Below, in pieces: positions 1 through 12,510 of a stretch of 45,584 bases of DNA. How positions within the stretch are numbered: position 1 is the stretch's first letter; each line of letters begins with the position of its first letter. The notes beneath the pieces are model-generated. The model saw nothing but the letters and a program-made list of their open reading frames with translations. It did not search any database and was not told the DNA's origin. Made by a program: the position numbers and the translations under genes. Source of the stretch: Flavobacteriia bacterium (GTDB lineage Bacteria > Bacteroidota > Bacteroidia > Flavobacteriales_D > Crocinitomicaceae); assembly GCA_947463445.1 (NCBI GenBank), contig CANHRS010000013.1, positions 1-45,584 of the forward strand, in the 5' to 3' direction.

Positions 1-1013
1 ATGGTTAATAGTATCCCATGGAAAATGGTAGACATTTTTGTTTTTGCACCTGCGTTTATGTTTACAGAACTTCGAACGATAACCGAAGTCACAGGGATTC
101 CGCCAATTAGTCCAGAAATTAAATTTCCGTAGCCTTGCGCTAATAATTCGCGGTTGGAGGAAACTTTTCTTTTTAATGGGTCAATTTTGGATACCGCCTC
201 TAAGTTTAACAAGGATTCTAAGGATGCAATAATGGCGATGGTAACACCAACAATCCATACATGTTTATTCGCTAAAGATGAAAAGGATGGGAATGTAAAA
301 AGTTCATTTAATCCATGAATCGGCGGGATGGAAACAAGGTGTTTTGTTTCAATCGTTAAAAATGGGAAATACTGACTGAAAATAGCATTTAGCAATATTC
401 CAAAAACTACCACAAATAAGGAGGCAGGAATTGTTTGCACCCATTTTAATGGAATTTTCTTCCAATAAATAAGAATGAGTAAAGAAAGTATACTGGTAAT
501 TATTGCACCGTAAGAGAAGTAATGTAAAATATTAAAAAGTTCTGAAAAGGTGTTTTGGTTATCCTTTTGAATAAAAGAGAAATCTTCTTCTGCAACTGCA
601 TCATAACCAAAGGCATGCGGAATTTGTTTTAAAATCAATATGATTCCGATGGATGAAATCAGACCATTAATAACATTCGTAGGAATATAATTTGCAATGA
701 TACCCGCGCGTAAATAAGCACCAATAATTTGTAATACACCTGCAATGACAACAGCCATTAAAAAGGTTTCGAAACTTCCGAGTTGATGGATGGCAGAAAA
801 TACTACTGCCGTAAGTCCTGCTGCAGGACCACTAACACTTATATGTGAGCGACTTATTAATCCTACTACGATTCCACCAATAACGCCGGAAATAATACCG
901 GAAATAATCGGAGCGCCACTCGCAAGAGCAACACCGAGACATAATGGAAGTGCAACAAGAAAGACTACTAATCCAGCTGGAATGTCTTTTTTTAAATTAT
1001 CTAGTGTAAACAT
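1..1013 (-). CDS. SulP family anion (probable bicarbonate) transporter, partial
   Basis: This is the N-terminal 337 codons of a SulP/SLC26 transporter; the 3' end lies beyond the left edge. The start is the ATG at 1013, three bases after the carbonic anhydrase stop, so the two are probably translated from one mRNA. The translation begins MFTLDNLKKDIPAGL and runs through repeated hydrophobic helices. It has the SulP signatures SGPAAGL near residue 55 and GLIGGIPVTSVIVRSS near residue 300. It closely resembles the second SulP gene at 3548-5185 in the segment LKRK...NRELLAQGYGN. SulP proteins carry sulfate, bicarbonate or other anions; pairing with a carbonic anhydrase favours bicarbonate, which is an inference. 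Any C-terminal STAS domain is outside the window. Confidence 0.9.
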   Translation of the reverse strand, partial: MFTLDNLKKDIPAGLVVFLVALPLCLGVALASGAPIISGIISGVIGGIVVGLISRSHISVSGPAAGLTAVVFSAIHQLGSFETFLMAVVIAGVLQIIGAYLRAGIIANYIPTNVINGLISSIGIILILKQIPHAFGYDAVAEEDFSFIQKDNQNTFSELFNILHYFSYGAIITSILSLLILIYWKKIPLKWVQTIPASLFVVVFGILLNAIFSQYFPFLTIETKHLVSIPPIHGLNELFTFPSFSSLANKHVWIVGVTIAIIASLESLLNLEAVSKIDPLKRKVSSNRELLAQGYGNLISGLIGGIPVTSVIVRSSVNINAGAKTKMSTIFHGILLT

Positions 1014-1016
1014 AGG

Positions 1017-1652
1017 TTAAAAGTCTAATTTATATACAGATGGAAGTTTAGAGTTGTCCCACATGGAAAGTTCTAGGTCTTTAATTAAGCCATTTTTTAA
1101 TCCGTAAACCCAACCATGGATCCCTAATTCCTGACCTTTTTCCCATGCTTTTTGCACAATGGAAGTTTTTGCTAAATCGTTGACTTGCTCTTTTACATTG
1201 AGTTCCACAAAACGATTGAAGCGTTCTTGCTCGTTTTCAATGGCATTTAATGCATCATCGTTTAAGCGATACACATCTTTGATATGGCGAATCCAATTGT
1301 CGATAATACCAATATGTTGATTTTTCATGGCAGTTTGGATACCTCCACAACCGTAATGTCCACATACAATAATGTGTTTTACTTCTAGTACATTTACAGC
1401 ATAATCTAGTACACTTAGCATGTTCATGTCGGAATGAATGACCATGTTTGCAATATTTCGATGTACGAAAACTTCACCTGGTTCAGCACCAATAATTTCA
1501 TTGGCTGGTACGCGTGAATCCGAACAACCTATCCAAAGTACTGGAGGCTTTTGTCCTGCTGCTAATTTTTCAAAATAGTGTGGGTTGATAGCAAGTTTTT
1601 CTGCAACCCAATCCTTGTTATTCTCAAGTAATTGTTGGTAGTAATTTTCCAT
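1017..1652 (-). CDS. can: Beta-class carbonic anhydrase
   Basis: This 211-residue cytoplasmic zinc enzyme interconverts CO2 and bicarbonate. The beta-class zinc site is complete: Cys43 and the Asp45/Arg47 pair lie in the CSDSR motif, and His99 and Cys102 in HYGCGG. Length and motif spacing match bacterial Can/CynT enzymes. It has no signal peptide. It sits between a small acidic protein gene (46 bases upstream) and the partial SulP gene (3 bases downstream), so an operon supplying or consuming bicarbonate next to the transporter is likely. Family assignment is firm; the role in anaplerotic carbon supply is an inference from the neighbours. Confidence 0.97.
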   Translation of the reverse strand: MENYYQQLLENNKDWVAEKLAINPHYFEKLAAGQKPPVLWIGCSDSRVPANEIIGAEPGEVFVHRNIANMVIHSDMNMLSVLDYAVNVLEVKHIIVCGHYGCGGIQTAMKNQHIGIIDNWIRHIKDVYRLNDDALNAIENEQERFNRFVELNVKEQVNDLAKTSIVQKAWEKGQELGIHGWVYGLKNGLIKDLELSMWDNSKLPSVYKLDF

Positions 1653-1697
1653 TAAGTTAAGTTTAAACGTTTTTTGAACAGAAACTGCTCAAGCAAA

Positions 1698-2033
1698 TCA
1701 CGATAAACTTAGTACGTCTGGAGGGGAGAAAAAACGGTCTAGATTGGGTGTTAAATAATGTTGTGTTTTGTAGTAATGGATTGTTTTGTTGGGGGTTATG
1801 TTTGTTTTTTGTTCTGTAGAATTAGTAAAGAAAGTGGAGAGGTAGATATCTTTTTCAGTAGTTTCTTTTTCGGTGTCTTCCTCGGTATCTTCTTCATCAT
1901 CCGTATCTTCTTCGTCTAAGTCATTCGATAATTCGATATCAGAATCTGAAAAATGCAAATAAATTGCTACATAGGTTTTGGTAGCAATTACAGCAAATAA
2001 AAAAAAGAATAAAATGTAATGTTTGGTTTTCAA
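1698..2033 (-). CDS. Small acidic membrane or exported protein of unknown function
   Basis: I do not recognise this 111-residue protein. Residues 6-27 are a hydrophobic segment that could be a signal or a single membrane helix. Residues 30-61 are extremely acidic (runs such as DLDEEDTDDEEDTEEDTEKE). A neutral tail of about 50 residues follows. The start appears to be a TTG at 2033, because an exact TATTTTTG box lies just upstream at 2051-2058 and no better start fits. It is the first gene before the carbonic anhydrase and SulP genes. Another small protein of the same layout (9713-10063) sits at the same position in front of dabA. The shared layout suggests a family linked to inorganic carbon transport, but sequence similarity is weak by eye. 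Confidence 0.65.
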   Translation of the reverse strand: MKTKHYILFFFLFAVIATKTYVAIYLHFSDSDIELSNDLDEEDTDDEEDTEEDTEKETTEKDIYLSTFFTNSTEQKTNITPNKTIHYYKTQHYLTPNLDRFFSPPDVLSLS

Positions 2034-2050
2034 TACGAATACTTGTGGGA

Positions 2051-2058
2051 CAAAAATA
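2051..2058 (-). promoter_or_regulatory. Bacteroidota -7 box (TATTTTTG) of the carbonic anhydrase operon
   Basis: Read on the minus strand this is TATTTTTG, an exact match to the Bacteroidota -7 consensus TAnnTTTG. It ends 17 bases before the TTG start of the small acidic gene. I see no clear TTG at the -33 position, so the call rests on the -7 box and its location. Confidence 0.5.
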
Positions 2059-2229
2059 CATTATTTTTAATGTCTTTTTATTTGTTTTTCGGTAAAATCG
2101 TAATTTCAAAAACATACGAAGTAATTGTATTTTTAAAGTTAGAAATTTGAATAGCAATTATAAGGCTGAAATAATATTAGGAAAACCGAAGAAAATATAG
2201 TTTGATTTTTGAAAATCATTCTTTTTAAA

Positions 2230-2604
2230 TTAATTGTTTTTAAATCCTTCCTTTACCCATATTTGAATTGCTTTTTTTGAACAAGAATCTAATTTAGCGT
2301 CATAGGATGGTGGCATTAAAATTTCACCATTACTCCCTGTAATACAATCTTCTAATATTCCTGCTTTAGCAAAAGGTAAGGTTCCAGTATAATTGGTGAA
2401 ATTTTGAGATGTCGCTGCATCGTGACATTTTACACAATAAGCATTTAGTATTGGCTGAATCGTTTTTTGATAAGAAATTGCTACTGTGTCGGAACACGTT
2501 TTTATAGTTGAATTTGTCGAAGAAATTGGTAAAGAAGATGCTACTTTCTTTGTGCAGGACAAAGAAAGTAGCAAAATCAATAGTATTAATCCTAGTTTAT
2601 TCAT
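2230..2604 (-). CDS. Heme c lipoprotein (single CxxCH)
   Basis: This 124-residue protein has a lipoprotein signal ending at Cys17 (LSLSC), so it is probably anchored to a membrane outside the cytoplasm. One heme c attachment motif is visible, CVKCH at residues 57-61. Met97, in the segment ILMPPS, is a plausible distal heme ligand. This pattern resembles the small cytochrome-like domains found in many Bacteroidota lipoproteins. The gene starts 4 bases after the DUF2490 gene ends, so both are probably one operon. Two further Cys pairs (Cys37/Cys87, Cys108) could form a disulfide. A role in electron transfer or redox sensing is likely, but the partner is unknown. Confidence 0.75.
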   Translation of the reverse strand: MNKLGLILLILLLSLSCTKKVASSLPISSTNSTIKTCSDTVAISYQKTIQPILNAYCVKCHDAATSQNFTNYTGTLPFAKAGILEDCITGSNGEILMPPSYDAKLDSCSKKAIQIWVKEGFKNN

Positions 2605-2608
2605 GTTT

Positions 2609-3403
2609 TTATTGTGCTACCTCTTTTTTGGAGAAATCAAAATTATACGTCAAGCCAATCGTTAGCGTATTATTGTTTTCCGCTTGGTCTAATACGGTAT
2701 TTGTAGGAGATACTTTTGCGTTTTTAACAACGTACTGATTCATATATCCGGCTTGAACCATACATTTTGCATTAAATTTCCACCCTAATGCAAACTGCAG
2801 ACGGTTTTGATCTAAAATATTGGTTCCTATTCCTTCACCAAATCCTAAAAAGACCTCATCATTTACATTCAAGAATAATGTATTGTCGCTCATTGTTTTA
2901 TGGTTAATTGGAATGAATGCCATTGCTCGATATCGAACACGATTACGAAACACAGTACCATCTTTTACAAATTCTGCACCTGATTTCACATAATTATCCA
3001 AGATACGTTGCTCTAAGCGGTAACGATGTTGTATATCCACTCGACCAATGGTGCTTTTTTGCGTAAACTGTTCCCATATACGATGCTCGTTGAATTGGTG
3101 ACTTACAGGCATTTCACCGTATTGAAAGGTGATGATACTACCATAACCTGCAGAAACAAATGCATTTGCATTTAAGTGATAGTCTAAACCAATACGTAAA
3201 AGCGATTGTTGCCAGTGTTGGTAGTAATCCGCACGACGCCATTGATATTCTGTGTGTAATCCCCATTTTTTGGAAAGTTTATGATTTCCTTGGTAGGTTG
3301 TCCAAGCATGGTTTTGTTCCGATATTTTCTTTTGTCCGAAAGTTGTAGACGTAAAAAGAAGAAATAGGAACACTACAATTTGTTTTATCATTTGTTTTAT
3401 CAT
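2609..3403 (-). CDS. DUF2490 family outer-membrane beta-barrel-like protein
   Basis: A 264-residue protein with a signal peptide ending near FGQ (residues 22-24), followed by alternating hydrophobic and aromatic strands typical of a small outer-membrane barrel. The motif HRYRLEQR near residue 125 and the segment NEHRIWEQF are characteristic of DUF2490 proteins, whose function is unknown. It starts with a duplicated MIKQ (MIKQMIKQ), so the start may be residue 1 or 5. It is followed at 4 bases by the heme c lipoprotein gene. A repeat-rich gap of about 140 bases separates it from the upstream SulP gene, which makes joint transcription with that gene uncertain. Confidence 0.8.
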   Translation of the reverse strand: MIKQMIKQIVVFLFLLFTSTTFGQKKISEQNHAWTTYQGNHKLSKKWGLHTEYQWRRADYYQHWQQSLLRIGLDYHLNANAFVSAGYGSIITFQYGEMPVSHQFNEHRIWEQFTQKSTIGRVDIQHRYRLEQRILDNYVKSGAEFVKDGTVFRNRVRYRAMAFIPINHKTMSDNTLFLNVNDEVFLGFGEGIGTNILDQNRLQFALGWKFNAKCMVQAGYMNQYVVKNAKVSPTNTVLDQAENNNTLTIGLTYNFDFSKKEVAQ

Positions 3404-3420
3404 TTTTTGAAAATTAAGTT

Positions 3421-3541
3421 TCCTCTCTTGAGGGTGGATTAAGCAGTGTGAAATTATTTTAGATAAAAGGTCACCACCCTTTCCCGAAAACTTTCGGGAC
3501 CCTCCTCACTTCGACAGGCTCAGTGTAAACAGGAGGGAAAT
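3421..3541. repeat. Dispersed intergenic repeat R1, copy 1 (compound)
   Basis: This AT-poor patch in an AT-rich gap contains a form of the cctc-ttgaggg-ggatt repeat at its left end. On the minus strand, its right part (3499-3541) matches the copy at 15414-15471 over ttccctc..gtttacactgag and gtcgaagtgaggaggg. A small palindrome, cccgaaa/tttcggg at 3483-3498, is inserted in this copy only. It lies between the SulP and DUF2490 genes. Confidence 0.7.
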
Positions 3542-3547
3542 ATAAAA

Positions 3548-5185
3548 TCACTTCTTAACTGCTGCAAATTTGTGTTTCGATTTCGTAGCTGGTCTAAATT
3601 CTTCAATCCCTTTAATCGTAAACGAACCACCTTCATTTTCGAAATCATCTTGGATATGATGAAGATTTTCAATTACTGTATGATCTACCAAATTACAAGC
3701 GGTAACATCGAAAACTACATTGTCCGTATAACTGAATTTTGCAATTTGTTTTTTGATACCAATTAAGTTACTAAAAACTGCCGCGCCTTCTACTATAATT
3801 GTATTACCCTCAGTGCGTGCTTTAGAACTAAACAAGTTTTTCAAAGAAGCACCATGCATTACGTGGAAGATAATTTTGATGACGATACCCGCACCAATAC
3901 CAACTAATAAATCGGTAGCTAAGGTAAAGATGATGGTTGTTAAGAAAATGATAATTTGTTCCCAACCAATTTTAGCCATGTGACCAAATTCTTTTGGGTG
4001 CGCTAATTTGTAACCAACACCAATCAACATGGCAGCTAATGCAGCTTTCGGTATCATGTCACTAAATTTTGTCGCAAAAAGTAAGAATAATAATATAAAG
4101 AAACCGTGAAAGAAGTTCGCCCAACGTGTTTTACCTCCATTTGCAACGTTTGCAGAAGAACGAGCAACCTCACTAATCATTGGTAAACCACCTAACACTC
4201 CAGCAATAATATTCCCAACACCAACAGCAATTAAGTCTTTATTAGTGTTTGCTTTACGTTTGAAAGGATCTACCATATCGATTGCCTTAACGGTAAGTAA
4301 GGCTTCTAAAGAACCTACTAAAGCAAACATGATAACGAATTTTATAAAAGTCCCTAATTGCGAAAACCCATCAAAACTTACATTGACTTGAATAATATCT
4401 AATAGACCATCTTTGAAATTTAATAATGGAGAGAAACCTTTAATGGTTTTACCCGCTGCGTCAACCGTGTCTGGTTCATTCACAACATGTAAAAAATGTG
4501 CTAGTGGTATTGCAACTACCAATACAACTAATGCAGCTGGGATTTTTTTAATTGCTTTCACAGGTATTCTTGGCCATGCAAATACAATTGTCAAACTAAC
4601 TAAACCTACAATTACTACATCTTTATGTTTAAAGAAGTTTGCGAATGTATTTCCTAATTCTTGGATGAGTTCAAGTGGTTCAACCATCGGTTTTCCCGCC
4701 TCTGTTAATGGGTTAAATCCTAATAGAATGTGTAATTGTTTACTGATTATAATAATTCCAATGGCAGCTAGCATTCCGTGAACAGCAGACAGTGGAAAGA
4801 AATCACTTAATTTCCCTAACTTAAGTACACCGAATAGTACTTGGCATACCCCTGCCACTACGATTGCGCCTAAAGCTAAATGCCAGCCTAATGTAGAATC
4901 ACCATGTCCAAGTTCTGCAACGGAGCCTGCAACTATTACGATTAATCCTGCTGCAGGACCTTTAATGGTCAATAAAGAACCAGCAAGTAAACTAACGATT
5001 AACCCACCTACCATTGCGGTAATTAAACCGTAAATAGGCGGGAAGTCACTAGCAGAGGCAATTCCTAAACTTAAAGGAAGTGCTAATAGGAATACTAAGA
5101 ATCCTGAAAGGGCATCCGAACTAAAGTTCTCTTTTAACCCTGCGATTCCATCTTTTGGTAGGGTTGTTTTATTTTGTGTTGTCAT
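3548..5185 (-). CDS. SulP family anion (probable bicarbonate) transporter with STAS domain
   Basis: A complete 545-residue SulP protein. The membrane part covers roughly residues 20-430, with the signatures IKGPAAGLIVI near residue 75 and GVLGGLPMISEVARSS near residue 335. A cytoplasmic STAS domain follows from about residue 445 to 530 (VFDVTACNLVDHTVIENLHH). It is a paralogue of the partial SulP at 1-1013. It lies 86 bases downstream of dabB on the same strand, with a hairpin overlapping the dabB end, so it may be the last gene of the dab operon or have its own mRNA. Bicarbonate as the substrate is inferred from the DabAB and carbonic anhydrase neighbours; sulfate cannot be excluded from sequence alone. 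Confidence 0.93.
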   Translation of the reverse strand: MTTQNKTTLPKDGIAGLKENFSSDALSGFLVFLLALPLSLGIASASDFPPIYGLITAMVGGLIVSLLAGSLLTIKGPAAGLIVIVAGSVAELGHGDSTLGWHLALGAIVVAGVCQVLFGVLKLGKLSDFFPLSAVHGMLAAIGIIIISKQLHILLGFNPLTEAGKPMVEPLELIQELGNTFANFFKHKDVVIVGLVSLTIVFAWPRIPVKAIKKIPAALVVLVVAIPLAHFLHVVNEPDTVDAAGKTIKGFSPLLNFKDGLLDIIQVNVSFDGFSQLGTFIKFVIMFALVGSLEALLTVKAIDMVDPFKRKANTNKDLIAVGVGNIIAGVLGGLPMISEVARSSANVANGGKTRWANFFHGFFILLFLLFATKFSDMIPKAALAAMLIGVGYKLAHPKEFGHMAKIGWEQIIIFLTTIIFTLATDLLVGIGAGIVIKIIFHVMHGASLKNLFSSKARTEGNTIIVEGAAVFSNLIGIKKQIAKFSYTDNVVFDVTACNLVDHTVIENLHHIQDDFENEGGSFTIKGIEEFRPATKSKHKFAAVKK

Positions 5186-5242
5186 TTTATTTTTACTTAA
5201 AGTTATTTAATTTTTTTTTCTTATTATATACGCAGACAATCA

Positions 5243-5283
5243 AAATCCAGTCAGATTGAGCGGAGTCGAAATCAACTGGATTT
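5243..5283 (-). terminator. Hairpin at the end of dabB
   Basis: Perfect 9-base arms, aaatccagt (5243-5251) and actggattt (5275-5283), enclose gattgagcggagtcgaaatc, whose ends also pair (gatt/aatc). The structure overlaps the dabB stop codon at 5272. There is no U-tract on the minus-strand transcript, so it may be an mRNA 3' stabiliser or a processing site instead of a strict terminator. The gagcggagtcgaaat core is a motif often seen in Bacteroidota intergenic repeats. Confidence 0.45.
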
Positions 5284-7140
5284 ATGTGCAATCGAATGGT
5301 AGGTTTTTACATGCGGTCCTAAAAACAAGCGCGCATAAATTCTTACCAATGCTAACCCATCGACAATCAAACTGATTGCAAGGAATAGTGCTAAAAAATA
5401 TTGGTCTTCCCGAATGGATGAAAAAACTAAGTCTTCTCCTATCATTGTTGGGGTTATTGGAAAACCTGCTAGTCCCAAACAGGCCAACAAAAACACAAAT
5501 GCAGTTTTAGGATATTCAAAAGCATGTCCTTGAAATCGGGCAAGCGTAATGCGTTTTTCTTTCCGTATTAAATGTCGAATTGCTATAAATCCCACGATAC
5601 CAGATACAATAACTCCGGATAAGTACATTACCAATGTGGAAAGATGAATCTCCGTATTTATCGAAATTGCTAATGCTATCCAAAAATGATTCATCATGAC
5701 CATAAACCAACTAAGCTGAACATTTCTTCGTTCAGTAAATGCTTTGATGACCATTAACAAGCCGATAAAAGCAAAAAATCCAGGGACATAATTTACTAGA
5801 AAAGGGGGTATGCTAACTTTCGTAATCACTAGTACCACTCCAGCTAAAAAAACAATTATAAAAAATAACAAACCTAATTTTAGTCGGAAAAAACCAAATT
5901 TTTGTACTGTTTTTTTTAACGGAGAAATGAATAGTTGATAAATAATGGATTCTAAATTCCATTCTTTTAAACTCAAAATGTATAACGAGTATTCGATGCG
6001 TTTTGGAAAACTATCTTCAAGCGTTCTTTCTCTTGGCTCATAGCTATACAATTGCTCTTTGATTTTATAACTTGCTATAGAGGGAGATATAAGTAATTGA
6101 TAAGTACGCAACAAGGCATTTCCACCAATGTGAAACAAAGCCAAATCATCAAAACCAGCAACAATTTCAAGGAATATCAATCCAATTTGTGCAATGGATG
6201 AATACGCAATTTGACTTTTTACAGAAGTCTGAACCCTTGCCATCAAACTAGCAACGAAACAAGTGAGTACCCCTAAAAAACCAATGAGTACACGAATTAC
6301 GAGTTGATGCTCCCAAAATGGATGTGTACGTAAAAGTAAAAATGCACCTATATGTACCGACAAAGAACCGTAAAAAATTGCACTGGAAGGTGTTGGACCC
6401 TCCATTGCGCGAGGTAACCAAGACGAAAAGGGGAGTTGTGCTGATTTTACTAACGCAGCTATCAAGATTACAAAAGAAATAAAAAATCCTTCCCAACTAT
6501 GTTTTTGGAGTAAATGACTGACAAGTTCTGCGTTATGCATTTTACCAAATGTCACATTCTCATGAAATAAATGGTGACTTAACCACATCGCTAGTATTAA
6601 TCCAATATCCCCAATGCGATACAGGGAGAAAATCTTTAAAGCATTTTTTACAGGTAAGTAACGATCTCGATAAAAGGCAATTAATAAAAAGGAGGATATC
6701 CCCAAAAATTCCCAACCTATAAACAATGTCTCAAAATTCCCAGATAAAATAATAATGTTATATCCTAAATAAAACAACAAGATTGTAGTGAAAAAACGTT
6801 TGAAGCCCGGTTCACGATGCAAATAAAATCGGCTGTAATAGGTGATTAAAAATGTTAAAAATGCTCCCATGACTAAAAACAATGCGGAAACACGATCAAA
6901 ATATAAGTCAATTAAGAAATCGTATCCTTTTGTTTTATAGATAGAAAATTCGGCTAAATTAATATCCTTATGTCCAGATACAATCCATATACATGTAAAA
7001 CCAAGCGCAAAGACGAGTTGTATACTCAATGTAACAAATGCTATACGTGAAATAACAAACTCATTTTTAGATGGAATACACAAACCGATTAGGTACCCTA
7101 GGACAGGTATCACTAAAAAATAATGTAATAAATATTCCAT
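5272..7140 (-). CDS. dabB: DabB: ion-translocating subunit of the DAB inorganic-carbon transporter
   Basis: A 622-residue polytopic membrane protein of the NADH-quinone oxidoreductase subunit L / Mrp antiporter family. The hallmarks are GWEFLG around residue 144, LVKSAQLPFSSWLP with Lys232, AMEGPTPSSA just after it, and YSSIAQIGL near residue 315. These belong to the cation-conducting core. No other complex I subunits are nearby, and the gene starts 4 bases after the DUF2309 (dabA) gene, which identifies it as DabB and not NuoL. In characterised DAB systems DabB couples a cation gradient to DabA-mediated CO2 hydration in the cytoplasm. The C-terminal part has additional helices up to residue 610. 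Confidence 0.92.
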   Translation of the reverse strand: MEYLLHYFLVIPVLGYLIGLCIPSKNEFVISRIAFVTLSIQLVFALGFTCIWIVSGHKDINLAEFSIYKTKGYDFLIDLYFDRVSALFLVMGAFLTFLITYYSRFYLHREPGFKRFFTTILLFYLGYNIIILSGNFETLFIGWEFLGISSFLLIAFYRDRYLPVKNALKIFSLYRIGDIGLILAMWLSHHLFHENVTFGKMHNAELVSHLLQKHSWEGFFISFVILIAALVKSAQLPFSSWLPRAMEGPTPSSAIFYGSLSVHIGAFLLLRTHPFWEHQLVIRVLIGFLGVLTCFVASLMARVQTSVKSQIAYSSIAQIGLIFLEIVAGFDDLALFHIGGNALLRTYQLLISPSIASYKIKEQLYSYEPRERTLEDSFPKRIEYSLYILSLKEWNLESIIYQLFISPLKKTVQKFGFFRLKLGLLFFIIVFLAGVVLVITKVSIPPFLVNYVPGFFAFIGLLMVIKAFTERRNVQLSWFMVMMNHFWIALAISINTEIHLSTLVMYLSGVIVSGIVGFIAIRHLIRKEKRITLARFQGHAFEYPKTAFVFLLACLGLAGFPITPTMIGEDLVFSSIREDQYFLALFLAISLIVDGLALVRIYARLFLGPHVKTYHSIAHKSS

Positions 7141-7144
7141 GGCC

Positions 7145-9643
7145 TTAATTGTTAATTAGTTGATAAACAGGAATATTCTTGTGACTTGATTCCACTAAAT
7201 GTTCTAAATTGGTACTCGTTTTAAAAACAGTGTGTTGTGGGTGGTATACGTGAAATTGATCCTTGGTAAATAAATATAATTCTTTGGTTTCAGGATGTAT
7301 CACCACAAGTTTAATCCAATCATTTTGATACCATTCATAGGTTTTAGGTGCTTTTTGAAGTACTTCAAGAACCACTTCAGGAAAATGTTCTACAATACAC
7401 ATGAGACGCATAGGATCATGCACTTCCACCATTTGTTTTGGTAGTCCAGGACGTATATCTCCCTCAATTCCATTCGTAACTCCAAATAAACCAACAATAT
7501 TATGTGGTAGTTTTGAACCAGAACCAAATTTTTGATCATCCACTTTGGCAAAATAATAGGCTAAATTAATACCGCCACAAACTGGTGTGACTGCATTCAT
7601 TATCGTCAATAAAAACGTCCCTGTAGGGTCTTGTTTGTAATTATAGGAATTCAAAAATGCACGTCGATCTAGAAACACATTTTTTGTCAACCATCTACCA
7701 CCAACTACACATAGTGAATTTGTTGCATGGTCTAATTCTGGTCGTGGTTCAAACAAGGAAAATGAACGTGTTTGAACTGCTTTGTGTACATATTTTAATG
7801 ATTTTTTAGTATCAATCGAAATAAATCGACGCGATCTTTCTTTTGCATTAAGTTCTAAAGCCCGATTGAATACAGCTTGATTTTTTAAGTGCTTTTGTTG
7901 ATTTACTTCCGATAATTGGACAATATCATAATACACCATTAAATCTTGCGCAGTGTCATGAAGTCCACCAATAAACTGTGTCTCTTCCGGAATATGAATT
8001 CCTCGTTCAGCTAATTTTTTGCGTACTTCTGGATGATTCCCCATTAATGCAGTTAAGCGAGCATTTACAGAGCCAGGCTTACACGAACATGCACCACAAT
8101 CCATGGTAGAATAATAGGCGTTGTTAGCACTTGTAGATCCGTGACCAATCACATAAATAAGTGGCGCAAAATGATCAATCAATCCAATACTACGAAGCAA
8201 TCCCTCGATACGATCTGCCATTTCAACTATTGTAAATCCAACGGTTAGTTCGTGTTCTCGGGTATTTTCGCCAGTGTTTTCAAAAATCAAAGAACTCGTA
8301 GGACTCATGTGTTGAAAGGAACTGACAGTTGTACTACCGTAACTTGGCTTGAAAATATATTTCAAGAGTTTAAAGGCAGACAAATATCCCATTGTTTGTG
8401 TAATTAACCATCCAATGAATAAACCATGACTCTTACTGGAAAAACCGACTTCTTTTTTGTGTTTGTAGGTATGTGCTTTTTCTAAAATTAGATGTTTTGG
8501 TGTAAGTGGCGCAGGACACAATTTAGTAAGGTATTTACCACCAGCTGGTTTGTAGTAAAATTCAATGTTAAAAAATCCTGCTGTGCCATAGGTTTCAGCA
8601 TGTGGATCACATTTTTCAACATAGGTTCTAAACGAACCTTCTCGGTCATCGATGCAAAATAAAGACTGGAAACTGACATTTTCCTGCCATGGTTCCGCTT
8701 CTTGTTTCGCTAAATAAAATAAAACTTCATCGTAGTACGACCATTCATAGGCTTCTTGCCACAATTTTAAAACTTCTGCAATTTCCACGTTGCGTGTTGG
8801 TGCGAAGATATCCTTATCCCCATTCTTTGCTAACAAACCTAAGGCCGACCATTGTCCGGGATATCTATCGTCTAGGGTATCTATTTCTAATAATAATTCT
8901 AGAAAAATAAAGTCCTCTAAATCAATAGCACGTTTCTCTAAAAGTACAAGCGGATTTTTCTCCAAATATGCCACCATGCCTGACCAACCGGGATGTTCAA
9001 ATTGCTGATCGAAAATATAATGAAAAAAGTATGCTTCGTTCCCAACTAAAATTTTCAACAAATCCTCTATTCCAATAGATTTGTTTGCTAATAATTTTTT
9101 CGCACGCGCTGTACGAAAGAAACTAGTAAAACTATTTTTTTCTAATTCGATTAGTGAATTGCGTAAGCCCTTTTTGTTTGCTGGAAAATTCCAAATAGAA
9201 ATACCTTGATCTAAATAGGCACCAACAATTCTAAAAAGATGAAGGTGCACATAATTGTCTACATCGATTTTCAAGAATTTTTTCCAAGCTTCCCGTAATT
9301 TTCCGACACGTGAATTGATGCGTATCTGGTAATCTTGGTCTATTAATTTTTGTTTCCAAACATGCAGATTTTCAGCGCCTTTTTGTTCGATGAGTACTTT
9401 TTCTAATACATCTGTGCGAATTTGTCCTTTAGCGTAAAAGTCCCGATATTCAACTAAATCTAAATAGGTTTTGTAGCCAAAAATTTCGGACGAACGTTTC
9501 ATTGCTTCATGAAATGGTAAGTCTTGAAAACTAGCTAGTGTATTTAAAAAGATATAATCTTTTAAAGGGCCTTGTGTAGGTAAATATTTTTTAAGTTCTT
9601 GAATGGTAATTGTTAAATCAAAAGAACTTGATTTTTTTTCCAT
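7145..9643 (-). CDS. dabA: DabA: zinc-binding carbonic-anhydrase-like subunit (DUF2309) of the DAB transporter
   Basis: An 832-residue soluble, membrane-associated protein of the DUF2309 family. The beta-carbonic-anhydrase-like zinc site is visible: Cys330 and Asp332 in FCIDDREGS, His501 in VIGHGS, and Cys516 in MDCGAC. The 15-residue His-Cys spacing is that of studied DabA proteins. DabA is thought to hydrate CO2 to bicarbonate in one direction, energised by DabB, so that bicarbonate accumulates in the cell. The gene lies between a small acidic protein gene (69 bases upstream) and dabB (4 bases downstream). All expected zinc ligands are present, so it should be active. Confidence 0.95.
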   Translation of the reverse strand: MEKKSSSFDLTITIQELKKYLPTQGPLKDYIFLNTLASFQDLPFHEAMKRSSEIFGYKTYLDLVEYRDFYAKGQIRTDVLEKVLIEQKGAENLHVWKQKLIDQDYQIRINSRVGKLREAWKKFLKIDVDNYVHLHLFRIVGAYLDQGISIWNFPANKKGLRNSLIELEKNSFTSFFRTARAKKLLANKSIGIEDLLKILVGNEAYFFHYIFDQQFEHPGWSGMVAYLEKNPLVLLEKRAIDLEDFIFLELLLEIDTLDDRYPGQWSALGLLAKNGDKDIFAPTRNVEIAEVLKLWQEAYEWSYYDEVLFYLAKQEAEPWQENVSFQSLFCIDDREGSFRTYVEKCDPHAETYGTAGFFNIEFYYKPAGGKYLTKLCPAPLTPKHLILEKAHTYKHKKEVGFSSKSHGLFIGWLITQTMGYLSAFKLLKYIFKPSYGSTTVSSFQHMSPTSSLIFENTGENTREHELTVGFTIVEMADRIEGLLRSIGLIDHFAPLIYVIGHGSTSANNAYYSTMDCGACSCKPGSVNARLTALMGNHPEVRKKLAERGIHIPEETQFIGGLHDTAQDLMVYYDIVQLSEVNQQKHLKNQAVFNRALELNAKERSRRFISIDTKKSLKYVHKAVQTRSFSLFEPRPELDHATNSLCVVGGRWLTKNVFLDRRAFLNSYNYKQDPTGTFLLTIMNAVTPVCGGINLAYYFAKVDDQKFGSGSKLPHNIVGLFGVTNGIEGDIRPGLPKQMVEVHDPMRLMCIVEHFPEVVLEVLQKAPKTYEWYQNDWIKLVVIHPETKELYLFTKDQFHVYHPQHTVFKTSTNLEHLVESSHKNIPVYQLINN

Positions 9644-9712
9644 AATGAATTAATTTGAGTAGGAATATTCAGTTACTAACATTGAGTAATCAATGCGAAG
9701 TGAATAGCAGAA

Positions 9713-10063
9713 TCAAATTAAAATATGTCTCACTTCCAACCAAAGAGGTAGAGAAGTGTTTTTTTCGTTTTTGTGTTTGGAAAAATGTAGATAGGAAGTA
9801 TTATTAATCGCATTCTCTTGAATTTCAAGTAAATGAAATGAGGAAAGGGTAATGTATTTGTTTTGAAAATCTTCCTCTTCTTCCTCTTCTTCTTCGTCTT
9901 CTAAAAAGGAACTTACGTTATCAACGAGTTCAAGTTTGGAAAATTTAAGGGATTTATCGGAGCTAAATTGCTTGTGAGAAAAAGCCATAACGGTAGATAC
10001 ATGTCCAAAAAGCAGTATTAAAACTGCTAACATGTTTATGATTCTACCGATTACTATTTTCAT
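9713..10063 (-). CDS. Small acidic exported protein of unknown function at the head of the dab operon
   Basis: I do not recognise this 116-residue protein. Residues 1-27 look like a signal peptide (MLAVLILLFGHVSTVMAFS). An uninterrupted Asp/Glu run occupies residues 55-65 (LEDEEEEEEEEDF). A tail of about 50 residues follows, rich in Ser, Asn and His, ending WLEVRHILI. The start is the ATG at 10063, with an exact TATCTTTG box at 10080-10087. It has the same layout (hydrophobic N-terminus, acidic run, 50-residue tail) and the same operon position as the small gene in front of the carbonic anhydrase (1698-2033). A short region such as kYItLSsF here and DIYLSTFF there may be related. Confidence 0.7.
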   Translation of the reverse strand: MKIVIGRIINMLAVLILLFGHVSTVMAFSHKQFSSDKSLKFSKLELVDNVSSFLEDEEEEEEEEDFQNKYITLSSFHLLEIQENAINNTSYLHFSKHKNEKNTSLPLWLEVRHILI

Positions 10064-10079
10064 CTATGAATTTTGAATA

Positions 10080-10087
10080 CAAAGATA
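10080..10087 (-). promoter_or_regulatory. Bacteroidota -7 box (TATCTTTG) of the dab operon
   Basis: On the minus strand the sequence is TATCTTTG, an exact TAnnTTTG match that ends 16 bases before the ATG at 10063. No convincing -33 TTG is seen. The position supports the small acidic gene as first gene of the dabA-dabB unit. Confidence 0.55.
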
Positions 10088-10251
10088 TACTTATAAATTT
10101 AAATGCTTGACTAATTAAATTTCTTTCGCTTTAACTTGTATAGATAAACTTCCATTAAGCTGAAATATTTACATTAATTAAGTAAAATCATTCGGCCTTT
10201 TGCTATCTTCAAAAAATAATGTACTTTCAACAAGTATTATTCTATTTGCAC

Positions 10252-12510
10252 ATGCGTTTTTATTTATTGATTCTATTTCTACTAAGTATCGGAGGAAGTG
10301 TATTTACGCAAACAATTCCTGGATTACCGTATTCCATTTCCAAAAAAGTTCTGCAGACAACTGATTTTTTAATTATGCCTTCGGTAGATGCGGAAAAAGA
10401 AATCACTAAAAATGAGCAAGCGGAAATAACTAGTAGGGAGAAAATACAACAATACGGAAAAGCATTAGATGTTAATATAGACGTATTGAAAGCTGCAAAG
10501 ATAGATACCCTGCCAAATGGTGAATTGGTATATCAACTTGGTATATCATGCCAAAACGCAGTATCAATTAATATTGTATTTGATCGTTTTCAGTTGAAAA
10601 TGGGTAGTCGCTTGTATGTTGTCGGTGCTACTACGAATCGCTATATCGGTGCTTATACCAGTTTAAATAATTCCAATGCACAAGTACTTGGAACAGAATT
10701 GGTAGAAGATTCTAAGGTAATTATTGAACTGATTGAACCCAAAGAGAATTGGGGTACTTCTAGCTTACATCTTGGATCGGTGATTCATGGCTATCGTTCG
10801 TTAGAAGCATTAATAAAACGTAGTTTTAATAATTCTGGAAACTGTAATATTGATGTCAATTGTCCGCAAGGAAAAGGGTATGAAATTCAACGTAATTCTG
10901 TAGCAATGCTAATTAATAGCACTGGAGGATTTTGTACTGGAACATTGTTGAATACCACTACTGGGCCTATTAAACCATATGTATTATCTGCTTACCATTG
11001 TGGCACAAATCCCGCTTCTTGGATATTTCGTTTTAGGTGGGAAAGTCCAAACGAAGGGGTAGATTGTGGTACTTCTAAGCCTTCACAAGATGGACCAAAA
11101 GAGAGGTCTATTACTGGCGCATCCTTGGTTGCCTCGTATAAAACTACCGATTTTATTTTGTGTGAACTAAATGCAGCTCCCGCACCGGAATGGGAAGTGG
11201 CCTATGCTGGCTGGGATAAATCGGGTAATATACCACAGACTGGTACTAGTATACATCATCCGGAAGCGGATATCAAAAAAATATCATTGGATTTTAAACC
11301 AGTGGTTGCTGAAGCGTTTAATAAAGGGGAACCGCGTAATCATTGGCGCTCAAATTGGGACCAAGGAATCACAGAGTCGGGCTCTTCCGGTTCACCATTA
11401 TTTGATCATAAGCACCGCGTTGTGGGACAATTACATGGCGGTGATTCGGATTGTATATCTAAGTTTATGACGGATTATTACGCGAAATTTAGCGAGTCAT
11501 GGAAAGGTGGCGGTTCGCCAGAAACGCGTTTAAGCGATTGGTTGGATCCTACAGCCACCAAAATGGAGTTTGTAGACGGGACTTCAAATTCAAAATACGA
11601 TCCATTTTTAACCTATAATGCAACTAATTTGAGCGGAAATCTTTGTTCAGATACCGTAAAACCCTACGTAATTATTATAAACGGGGGAACGGATACATTG
11701 AAATCTATACGTGTGCGTTATGCTTACGATACAGGTGCATTTACAGATATCACATGGAATGGAAAATTAGCATTATACGAAACGGATACCCTCCATTTAC
11801 CTGCTATGAAGTTGGATAAAGGTACACATGTTTTTACAGCTACTTTACTTGCTGACTCGGATAAAATAGATGCTGAAATCACGAATAATAGCGTATCGTG
11901 TACGTTTAAAATACTCCAAAATCCACAAAAATATTACCTAGAATTACAGCTGGACACCGAAGGAGATGATAATGTTTGGTATTTGACGGATTCGACGAAT
12001 AAAATATGGTACAAGGGTGGTCCATATTTACAAACAATAGGTAAACCTATGAAAATCCAACAAACCTTCTGCTTGGAACCAAATTGCTTCACGTTTTCAA
12101 TGTATGATTTTTCTGGGGATGGAATGTATGTAAATGATTCAAATGTTGGTTCCTATTCTATAAAAGATGAATCAAACAAGGTGGTTGCACAATTATTACC
12201 CGAAAATGCCAAATTCGCAGCTTCCTACACAAAGAAATTCTGCTATATTTCCAATGTGGAAGAAGTAGACTTTGAAAATCAAATTCGTTTATTCCCGAAT
12301 CCATCTAATTTGGATGTTTTTCACATAACTGCTGAAAATAGTAGTATTAGAAATCTTGAAATATATACTATTGCGGGACAGTTAATCTCTAGCTATGCGG
12401 TGAATGCATACGAATTTGAAGTCCCTATATCTCAATTACAAGCTGGTATGTATTATGTGCGAATCATTGGTGCTAGTTCTGAAACAACCAAACCTTTTGT
12501 TCGTTATTAA
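10252..12510 (+). CDS. Secreted lysyl-endopeptidase-like serine protease with type IX sorting domain
   Basis: A trypsin-fold protease. Counting from an alternative ATG at 10219, the catalytic residues are His260 (LSAYHCG), Asp311 (KTTDFIL) and Ser390 (ESGSSGSPLF), the pattern of Achromobacter lysyl endopeptidases. A signal peptide (FYLLILFLLSIGGSVFTQ) precedes them. I prefer the ATG at 10252 because the first 11 codons add nothing to the signal and a -7-like TATCTTCA lies at 10204-10211. After the protease come beta-sandwich regions and, from about residue 690, a C-terminal domain starting LFPNPSN and ending ETTKPFVRY, a type A sorting signal for type IX secretion. Export to the surface or medium is expected. 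The next gene, hemW, follows after 5 bases. Confidence 0.88.
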   Translation: MRFYLLILFLLSIGGSVFTQTIPGLPYSISKKVLQTTDFLIMPSVDAEKEITKNEQAEITSREKIQQYGKALDVNIDVLKAAKIDTLPNGELVYQLGISCQNAVSINIVFDRFQLKMGSRLYVVGATTNRYIGAYTSLNNSNAQVLGTELVEDSKVIIELIEPKENWGTSSLHLGSVIHGYRSLEALIKRSFNNSGNCNIDVNCPQGKGYEIQRNSVAMLINSTGGFCTGTLLNTTTGPIKPYVLSAYHCGTNPASWIFRFRWESPNEGVDCGTSKPSQDGPKERSITGASLVASYKTTDFILCELNAAPAPEWEVAYAGWDKSGNIPQTGTSIHHPEADIKKISLDFKPVVAEAFNKGEPRNHWRSNWDQGITESGSSGSPLFDHKHRVVGQLHGGDSDCISKFMTDYYAKFSESWKGGGSPETRLSDWLDPTATKMEFVDGTSNSKYDPFLTYNATNLSGNLCSDTVKPYVIIINGGTDTLKSIRVRYAYDTGAFTDITWNGKLALYETDTLHLPAMKLDKGTHVFTATLLADSDKIDAEITNNSVSCTFKILQNPQKYYLELQLDTEGDDNVWYLTDSTNKIWYKGGPYLQTIGKPMKIQQTFCLEPNCFTFSMYDFSGDGMYVNDSNVGSYSIKDESNKVVAQLLPENAKFAASYTKKFCYISNVEEVDFENQIRLFPNPSNLDVFHITAENSSIRNLEIYTIAGQLISSYAVNAYEFEVPISQLQAGMYYVRIIGASSETTKPFVRY

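Follow-up and report, generated by a model that had tools for sequence, protein, structure and literature searches.

We analyzed a 45,584-nucleotide (nt) stretch of a Flavobacteriia bacterium of the Crocinitomicaceae (contig CANHRS010000013.1 of assembly GCA_947463445.1, positions 1 to 45,584; hereafter, the window), in which two small open reading frames (ORFs), here called heads A and B, stand at the front of two inorganic-carbon operons. The gene order on the minus strand is head B, dabA, dabB, SulP, DUF2490, a small ORF, head A, carbonic anhydrase (CA), and a second SulP. The features, all on the minus strand, are as follows (loci used for comparison are designated by L and a number).

10080..10087, TATCTTTG box upstream of head B, 16 nt from its ATG
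9713..10063, head B, an ORF of 116 amino acids (aa) with an ATG start (ORF list)
9869..9901, acidic run of head B, E55 to D65 (sequence)
9716..9748, C-terminal motif of head B, PLWLEVRHILI, adjoining the stop codon; candidate arrest motif (motif matrix)
9713..9721, 5' arm of the head B helix, i.e., the final two codons and the TGA stop
9650..9658, 3' arm of the head B helix, 7 to 15 nt upstream of the dabA ATG (fold z of -4.4)
7145..9643, dabA (PF10070)
5272..7140, dabB, NuoL-like (PF00361)
3548..5185, SulP transporter 1 (SulP1; PF00916)
2609..3403, DUF2490 outer-membrane-like protein
2230..2604, small ORF with sub-threshold cytochrome c matches, between DUF2490 and head A
2051..2058, TATTTTTG, presumed promoter box upstream of head A
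1698..2033, head A, an ORF of 111 aa with a TTG start (ORF list); orthologs in L003, L004, L099, and L100
1848..1922, acidic run of head A, residues 38 to 62 (sequence)
1716..1724, Pro-Pro-Asp close to the C terminus of head A, class A polyproline motif (alignment of 15 sequences)
1704..1711, 5' arm of the head A helix, in the final codons (helix p of 0.13 at this locus alone; fold z of -1.8)
1658..1665, 3' arm of the head A helix, 6 to 13 nt upstream of the CA ATG (relief, as defined below, of 4.35 kcal/mol)
1017..1652, beta-CA (PF00484)
3..1013, SulP transporter 2 (SulP2; PF00916), extending past the window edge

A preliminary description, made from the sequence alone, had placed two small ORFs of shared layout at these operon heads, each followed closely by a zinc enzyme gene. 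Their coordinates, lengths, and layout proved accurate, and the enzymes are CA and DabA, separated from heads A and B by spacers of 45 nt and 69 nt, respectively. Both heads have a hydrophobic N terminus (judged from hydropathy alone), an Asp/Glu run, and then a tail; they contain no Cys and have 4 and 6 scattered His residues. Neither head matches any Pfam or NCBIfam family above the cut-off, and no Rfam family was found at gathering thresholds within positions 1 to 12000 of the window. The same description had proposed common descent of the two heads; we rejected this homology because there is no usable residue-level similarity (BLASTP E value of 40) and the C-terminal motifs belong to different classes.

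Regions upstream of dabA were collected in a first round from loci on genome contigs and from searched genomes; start codons were estimated, and a hydrophobic N terminus was among the criteria used to select heads. An ORF of the same build as head B precedes type I dabA at 33 distinct loci, six judged loci lack one (L013, L015, L016, L022, L057, and L064), and L005, L021, L024, L036, and L045 were left unjudged owing to a contig end or an unclear start. No ORF fitting the head criteria was found upstream of type II dabA, whose products share approximately 25 to 40% identity with that of the window (L027 to L030, L049 to L056, L063, L066, and L068). For a hold-out set, 349 genomes of the order were searched, 103 of which encode DabA, and upstream DNA was taken from 60 further dabA places and 13 type I loci from the search, after exclusion of L255 and L263, in which no dabA start was located, and of L293, whose upstream DNA was too short. 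With a head defined as an ORF of 75 to 200 aa that has a hydrophobic N terminus and ends 20 to 400 nt upstream of dabA, 63 of the 70 testable dabA genes carry one, which is the sole candidate in all but one case (the count retains L267, a repeat of first-set L019). Among the seven dabA genes lacking a head, L251, L262, L289, and L290 lie downstream of SulP according to tblastn, L284 according to Pfam, and L247 by eye; L292 has neither. Where SulP comes first and enough upstream DNA is present, an acidic small ORF stands upstream of SulP in four of four loci, two of which score at least 6 on the motif matrix described below. The head ORF is thus tied to the first position of the operon and not to dabA itself.

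The dabA heads (class B) share a C-terminal motif that adjoins the stop codon, with the rough consensus P-[LI]-[YWF]-[LI]-x-x-[RHNQC]-x-[FLIW]-[RKIL] (e.g., PLWLEVRHILI, PIWLKLRSIII, PLYDLFCNWK, and NPLFIVYQVFRI). On a matrix built from the first-set dabA heads, 49 of the 63 hold-out heads score at least 6, as do 2 of 450 long ORFs, one of which is very probably the L060 head itself. The preliminary description had proposed both a profile search and a synteny count; for class B, the profile search (alignment A2) recovered no more than head B itself plus three matches that were weak and partial, and the evidence for this class therefore comes from the synteny count given above. Some dabA loci have unusual arrangements. 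L308 and L289, from one genome (contig C22), contain an apparent SulP-DabA fusion in a single open frame of 1,411 aa, with an acidic small ORF at its head. L036 and L047 represent two tandem dabA genes on one contig of a same-family genome, with a head upstream of the second. At L013, a His-rich small ORF with a hydrophobic N terminus (4765 to 5214, minus strand) lies on the opposite strand beside dabA and is possibly a metal-operon head.

Class A heads are small, acidic, exported-looking ORFs that end in PPP, or in PP followed by a few residues (e.g., SPPPEA, APPPELV, and IPPPDFV); the C terminus of head A is FFSPPDVLSLS. They stand upstream of the CA-operon SulP (SulP2) at 18 of the 29 loci examined in the phylum (of 41 places listed). 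At two of the 11 loci without a head (L135 and L154), CA lies directly upstream of SulP. In a 15-sequence alignment of this class (A1), the invariant columns are one Glu and two Pro. The corresponding profile search gave 23 matches in 22 of 148 genomes, 21 of them directly upstream of SulP or CA-SulP, although most of the 21 were already in the starting set; outside that set, 6 of 8 matches occupy this position. The other two matches are one upstream of an ABC transporter gene and one weak partial match. The former (L214, 1450 to 1800, reverse strand) is a class-A-like head ending TPPPNYFC, and its downstream gene (PF00664) is non-carbon. Heads directly upstream of CA were found only at L069 (the window's own head A locus), L099, and L100, which represent the window's genus, among 51 CA loci (L069 to L119); candidates at L078 and L094 were discarded as unrelated ORFs. 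The parallel placement pointed out in the preliminary description holds up; it is conserved and goes mostly with inorganic-carbon operons (63 of 70 hold-out dabA genes and 18 of 29 SulP2 loci).

TAnnTTTG boxes, which we take to be Bacteroidota -7 type promoter boxes, had also been described upstream of both heads and are present at 2051 to 2058 and 10080 to 10087. For 78 of 128 heads, such a box falls in the 45 nt that precede the estimated start, most often at -12; only 14 of 629 control windows have one. Its number in the window matches chance (69 found versus 70 expected), so the box is informative only across homologs. If it is indeed the Bacteroidota -7 promoter box, many head mRNAs would be leaderless or nearly so; the leaders of the two window heads would be short rather than absent, since 16 to 17 nt separate box and start.

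The final two codons and the TGA stop of head B (9713 to 9721) pair with 9650 to 9658, just upstream of the dabA ATG (z of -4.4), in a folding model that ignores proteins and transcription. Across eight relatives, 89.7% of the cells of this helix are paired and three pairs are changed on both sides, a result reached in 1 of 500 shuffles, with an alignment that is small and in which L035 alone carries two of the three both-sided changes. The fold at head A is weaker, with a z of -1.8 and a helix p of 0.13, although the relief there is 4.35 kcal/mol. An individually significant helix is present at 26 of 67 loci (60 shuffles each) and covers the stop codon in 24 of these 26, with 23 distinct 5' arms, which indicates that the pairing is kept though the sequence changes.

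We calculated relief, per position, as the drop in the cost of opening the next start when a modeled ribosome footprint is present. Rows with a spacer outside 30 to 150 nt (30 to 170 nt in the hold-out set), a non-ATG start, or a duplicate sequence were dropped, leaving 27 of 30 class A, 25 of 34 class B, 3 of 5 SulP1, and 61 of 63 hold-out heads. With the ribosome at the head stop codon, mean relief is 3.11 kcal/mol in class B (at least 2 in 17 of 25) and 1.89 kcal/mol in class A (at least 2 in 14 of 27), compared with -0.20 kcal/mol for control gene pairs of the same loci (at least 2 in 0 of 36). The relief peaks at approximately -10 to +20 nt around the head stop (2.2 to 3.5 kcal/mol in class B, 1.2 to 2.1 kcal/mol in class A, and approximately 0 in controls). 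Hold-out class B heads show a relief of 3.56 kcal/mol versus 0.20 kcal/mol in spacer shuffles, reaching at least 2 in 34 of 61 loci; the fraction is 30 of 45 where the spacer does not exceed 100 nt and 4 of 16 where it is longer.

Selection on the peptide was followed through the proportions of nonsynonymous and synonymous differences (pN and pS). Seven close relatives of head B have the same final 14 residues, encoded by differing codons (pS of 0.52; pN/pS of 0.02), and the acidic run has an equally low pN/pS of 0.02; the values elsewhere are 0.32 to 0.52 in the linker, 0.40 in the pre-run segment, and 0.31 in the signal. The distance from the acidic run to the C terminus is 52 ± 7 residues in class A and 59 ± 6 residues in class B and SulP1 heads combined (the standard deviation in shuffles is 18 to 22), and differences in head length are absorbed between the signal and the acidic run. 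The distance is 44 to 64 residues in 48 of the 63 hold-out heads. Several dabA heads (L287, L294 to L298, and L300) have the acidic run approximately 75 residues from the C terminus, and several of these have a GG or GGG stretch, unlike the others.

This anatomy suggests a cis-acting nascent-chain regulator rather than a subunit, because a promoter box lies close by, the acidic run and the C-terminal motif are under purifying selection, and a helix joins the final codons of the head to bases just upstream of the next start. Our preferred interpretation, which we regard as reasonably probable, is that each head is a cis-acting, cotranslationally exported leader peptide that serves as a stalling switch for the first gene of its operon. 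The computed support comprises position, conservation, the helix, site-specific relief, and peptide-level selection in close relatives. The following scheme also includes inferred elements, namely C-terminal stalling, peptide export, the sense in which control operates, and the signal. The head would be translated from an mRNA whose leader is very short, and its signal sequence would bring the nascent chain to the Sec translocon. The C-terminal motif (the class B consensus, or the PPP or PP plus a few residues of class A) would then make the ribosome slow down or stall on the stop codon or immediately ahead of it, where it would cover the 5' arm of the helix and free the masked start of dabA, SulP, or CA for translation. 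Once export pulled the chain free, the peptide would be completed, and re-formation of the helix would switch the operon off. The acidic run, mostly 44 to 64 residues from the C terminus, may serve as the sensor, responding to force or ions on the periplasmic side. SecM, VemP, MifM, and CutF share this combination of an exported nascent chain, a C-terminal stall motif, and a helix masking the next gene.

Several results weigh against a stalling switch. The low C-terminal pN/pS of head B rises to 0.37 across eleven wider relatives, and head A, in three relatives, has values of 0.29 at the C terminus, 0.12 in the acidic region, and 0.26 to 0.34 in the rest, i.e., no C-terminal selection contrast. 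The hydrophobic N terminus is not independent evidence, since heads were selected on it; the motif cores in the matrix were aligned by hand, and 14 of the 63 hold-out heads score below 6. The acidic run lies 65 to 80 residues from the C terminus in 13 of 63 hold-out heads, for which reason a universal distance of 50 to 60 residues was rejected. Relief is below 2 kcal/mol in 27 of 61 hold-out class B heads (15 of 45 with short and 12 of 16 with long spacers), and it was found in 1 of 3 SulP1 heads and in only 2 of 7 new class A heads, so that class A may often work otherwise. The evidence for class A is weaker than that for class B in both RNA and selection. The proline tail of CutF alone gave no stall in a LepB fusion (PMC9973294).

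Plain translational coupling, in which any ribosome finishing the head opens the helix, no arrest takes place, and the peptide is a by-product, would need the helix over the stop codon just as much, and the relief there requires only a passing or terminating ribosome. Coupling nevertheless leaves unexplained why, in close relatives, pN/pS is 0.02 in the C-terminal motif and acidic run versus 0.31 to 0.52 elsewhere, why otherwise dissimilar heads have a common C-terminal motif, and why the distance from the acidic run to the C terminus is constrained; we consider it rather unlikely. The preliminary description had suggested an accessory component of inorganic-carbon uptake; as a rival explanation, this would be a small exported or membrane protein binding DabAB, SulP, or cations. 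The association of heads with dabA, SulP, and CA operons is in keeping with such a subunit and has stood, and in Halothiobacillus the third protein of DAB1, Hneap_0908, is a small transmembrane protein whose gene accompanies dabA and dabB (PMC13144422). By its locus number, however, hneap_0908 lies between hneap_0907 (dabA1) and hneap_0909 (dabB1) and not at the head. In addition, the head goes with the front of the operon regardless of which gene stands there, much of its mature part drifts, and its final codons double at many loci as RNA masking the next start. Given the operon-head position, the codon-start pairing, and the strong purifying selection that in close relatives is limited to the acidic run and the extreme C terminus, a periplasmic or membrane component is probably wrong, and we hold the subunit explanation to be quite improbable. 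In transcription attenuation, arrest at the head would control termination within the spacer, whether through Rho or at an intrinsic terminator, along the lines of CruR or TnaC. In its favor, CruR, which was tested, has a similar layout and works through Rho (PMC9426467). Against it, no intrinsic-terminator-like site is listed in the head-dabA or head-CA spacer of the window, and the helix 3' arm lies just upstream of a start codon and not of a U-run. We consider attenuation very improbable.

The stalling switch that we prefer has precedents with published experiments (CutF, CruR, and the SecM type). CutF of the Rhodobacter capsulatus cutFOG operon (PMC9973294), like the switch proposed here, is a small exported head ORF with a C-terminal proline motif and an intergenic stem-loop over the next start, and a lingering ribosome leads to translation of the next gene. 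CutF senses Cu via a Cys motif and belongs to DUF2946, whereas the window heads lack Cys, have an acidic run, do not match DUF2946, and stand upstream of inorganic-carbon genes. A counterpart of its proline motif is the PPD of head A; head B and class B have no PP. The filters described for CutF-like proteins ask for fewer than 150 aa and a next gene in the same orientation; the window heads fit, with 111 and 116 aa and spacers of 45 and 69 nt, and the stem-loop over the next start is clear at head B and is seen at head A in the relief value, with the helix p and fold z given above. Neither head has the Cys and/or His metal-binding motif. CutF-like proteins are reported mainly from Pseudomonadota and Bacteroidota, mostly beside metal genes (PMC9973294); the main text of that paper contains none of the terms carbonic, bicarbonate, sulfate, DabA, and SulP. 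SecM, VemP, MifM, and related arrest peptides (PMC10987492) resemble the proposed switch in pairing an N-terminal localization signal with a C-terminal arrest motif, encoded ahead of the gene that they control, and SecM-type arrest is released via pulling at the translocon; these peptides, however, monitor Sec or YidC and stand upstream of secA, secDF, or yidC, and the Bacteroidota arrest peptides named in the available text end in NSP or NAP, unlike the motifs of the heads. CruR (Bordetella pertussis bp2923; PMC9426467) is an operon-head upstream ORF (uORF) with a signal-sensing nascent chain and a C-terminal RAPP, but it differs in responding to copper, in its CXXC motif, and in acting through Rho-dependent termination.

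HYC_CC_PP (NF047658), a named Bacteroidota family of unknown function, resembles the carbon heads in its operon-head position, its PP, and its class-B-like C-terminal tail, but it is Cys/His-rich. Neither window head matches NF047658, and the family has no match in their own genome. On the dabA-head matrix, 7 of 12 HYC_CC_PP tails score at least 6, and RNA relief with a start-masking helix is present in 10 of the 11 heads computed. For the HYC_CC_PP heads (L120 to L133), six downstream genes were submitted to Pfam, and five of them encode a TonB receptor, HMA, or RND pump. The operon-head position and start-masking helix indicate that HYC_CC_PP is probably CutF-like, and the shared tail and RNA relief tie the carbon heads to this metal-sensing group.

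A further idea, which we advance only tentatively and think doubtful, is that the acidic run acts as an electrical or ionic gauge, such that, while the ribosome is halted at the C-terminal motif, the run would lie near the periplasmic mouth of SecYEG and the membrane potential, the periplasmic pH, or divalent cations would decide release. A review credits the membrane potential with driving acidic residues through SecYEG and with releasing SecM arrest, and it cautions that neutral and basic stretches had an effect as well. In a simulation paper, glutamate tended to become uncharged within the channel, an argument against simple pulling at that point. Coupling to membrane potential has been described for DAB2 (PMC13144422). 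If the gauge idea is correct, DAB and SulP/CA would be switched by nascent-chain sensing of the membrane energy state, the energy that they themselves spend on CO2 and bicarbonate.

Elsewhere in the locus, a terminator-like hairpin of 15 pairs with a T-rich tail (2539 to 2573, minus strand) lies just past DUF2490, within the 5' part of the ORF at 2230 to 2604. Either it is a terminator or the start of that ORF has been set wrongly. Nothing matching this ORF is found between DUF2490 and head A in L003 and L004.

In the openly licensed PMC literature, we found no earlier report of arrest peptides or stalling uORFs for carbonic anhydrase, bicarbonate transporter, or inorganic-carbon genes, no report on the control of Bacteroidota DAB and SulP/CA systems, and nothing on HYC_CC_PP. 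The heads would thus represent the known logic of SecM and CutF in a new setting, with a new cargo, a new sensing region, and a new C-terminal class. Our analysis names a second class of C-terminal motif, one without polyproline, and predicts a translational switch that is built into the operon and present in many genomes. If this is true, uncharacterized HYC_CC_PP proteins would be linked to the same logic, and the range of nascent exported sensors, so far metals and protein export, would grow to include inorganic carbon.

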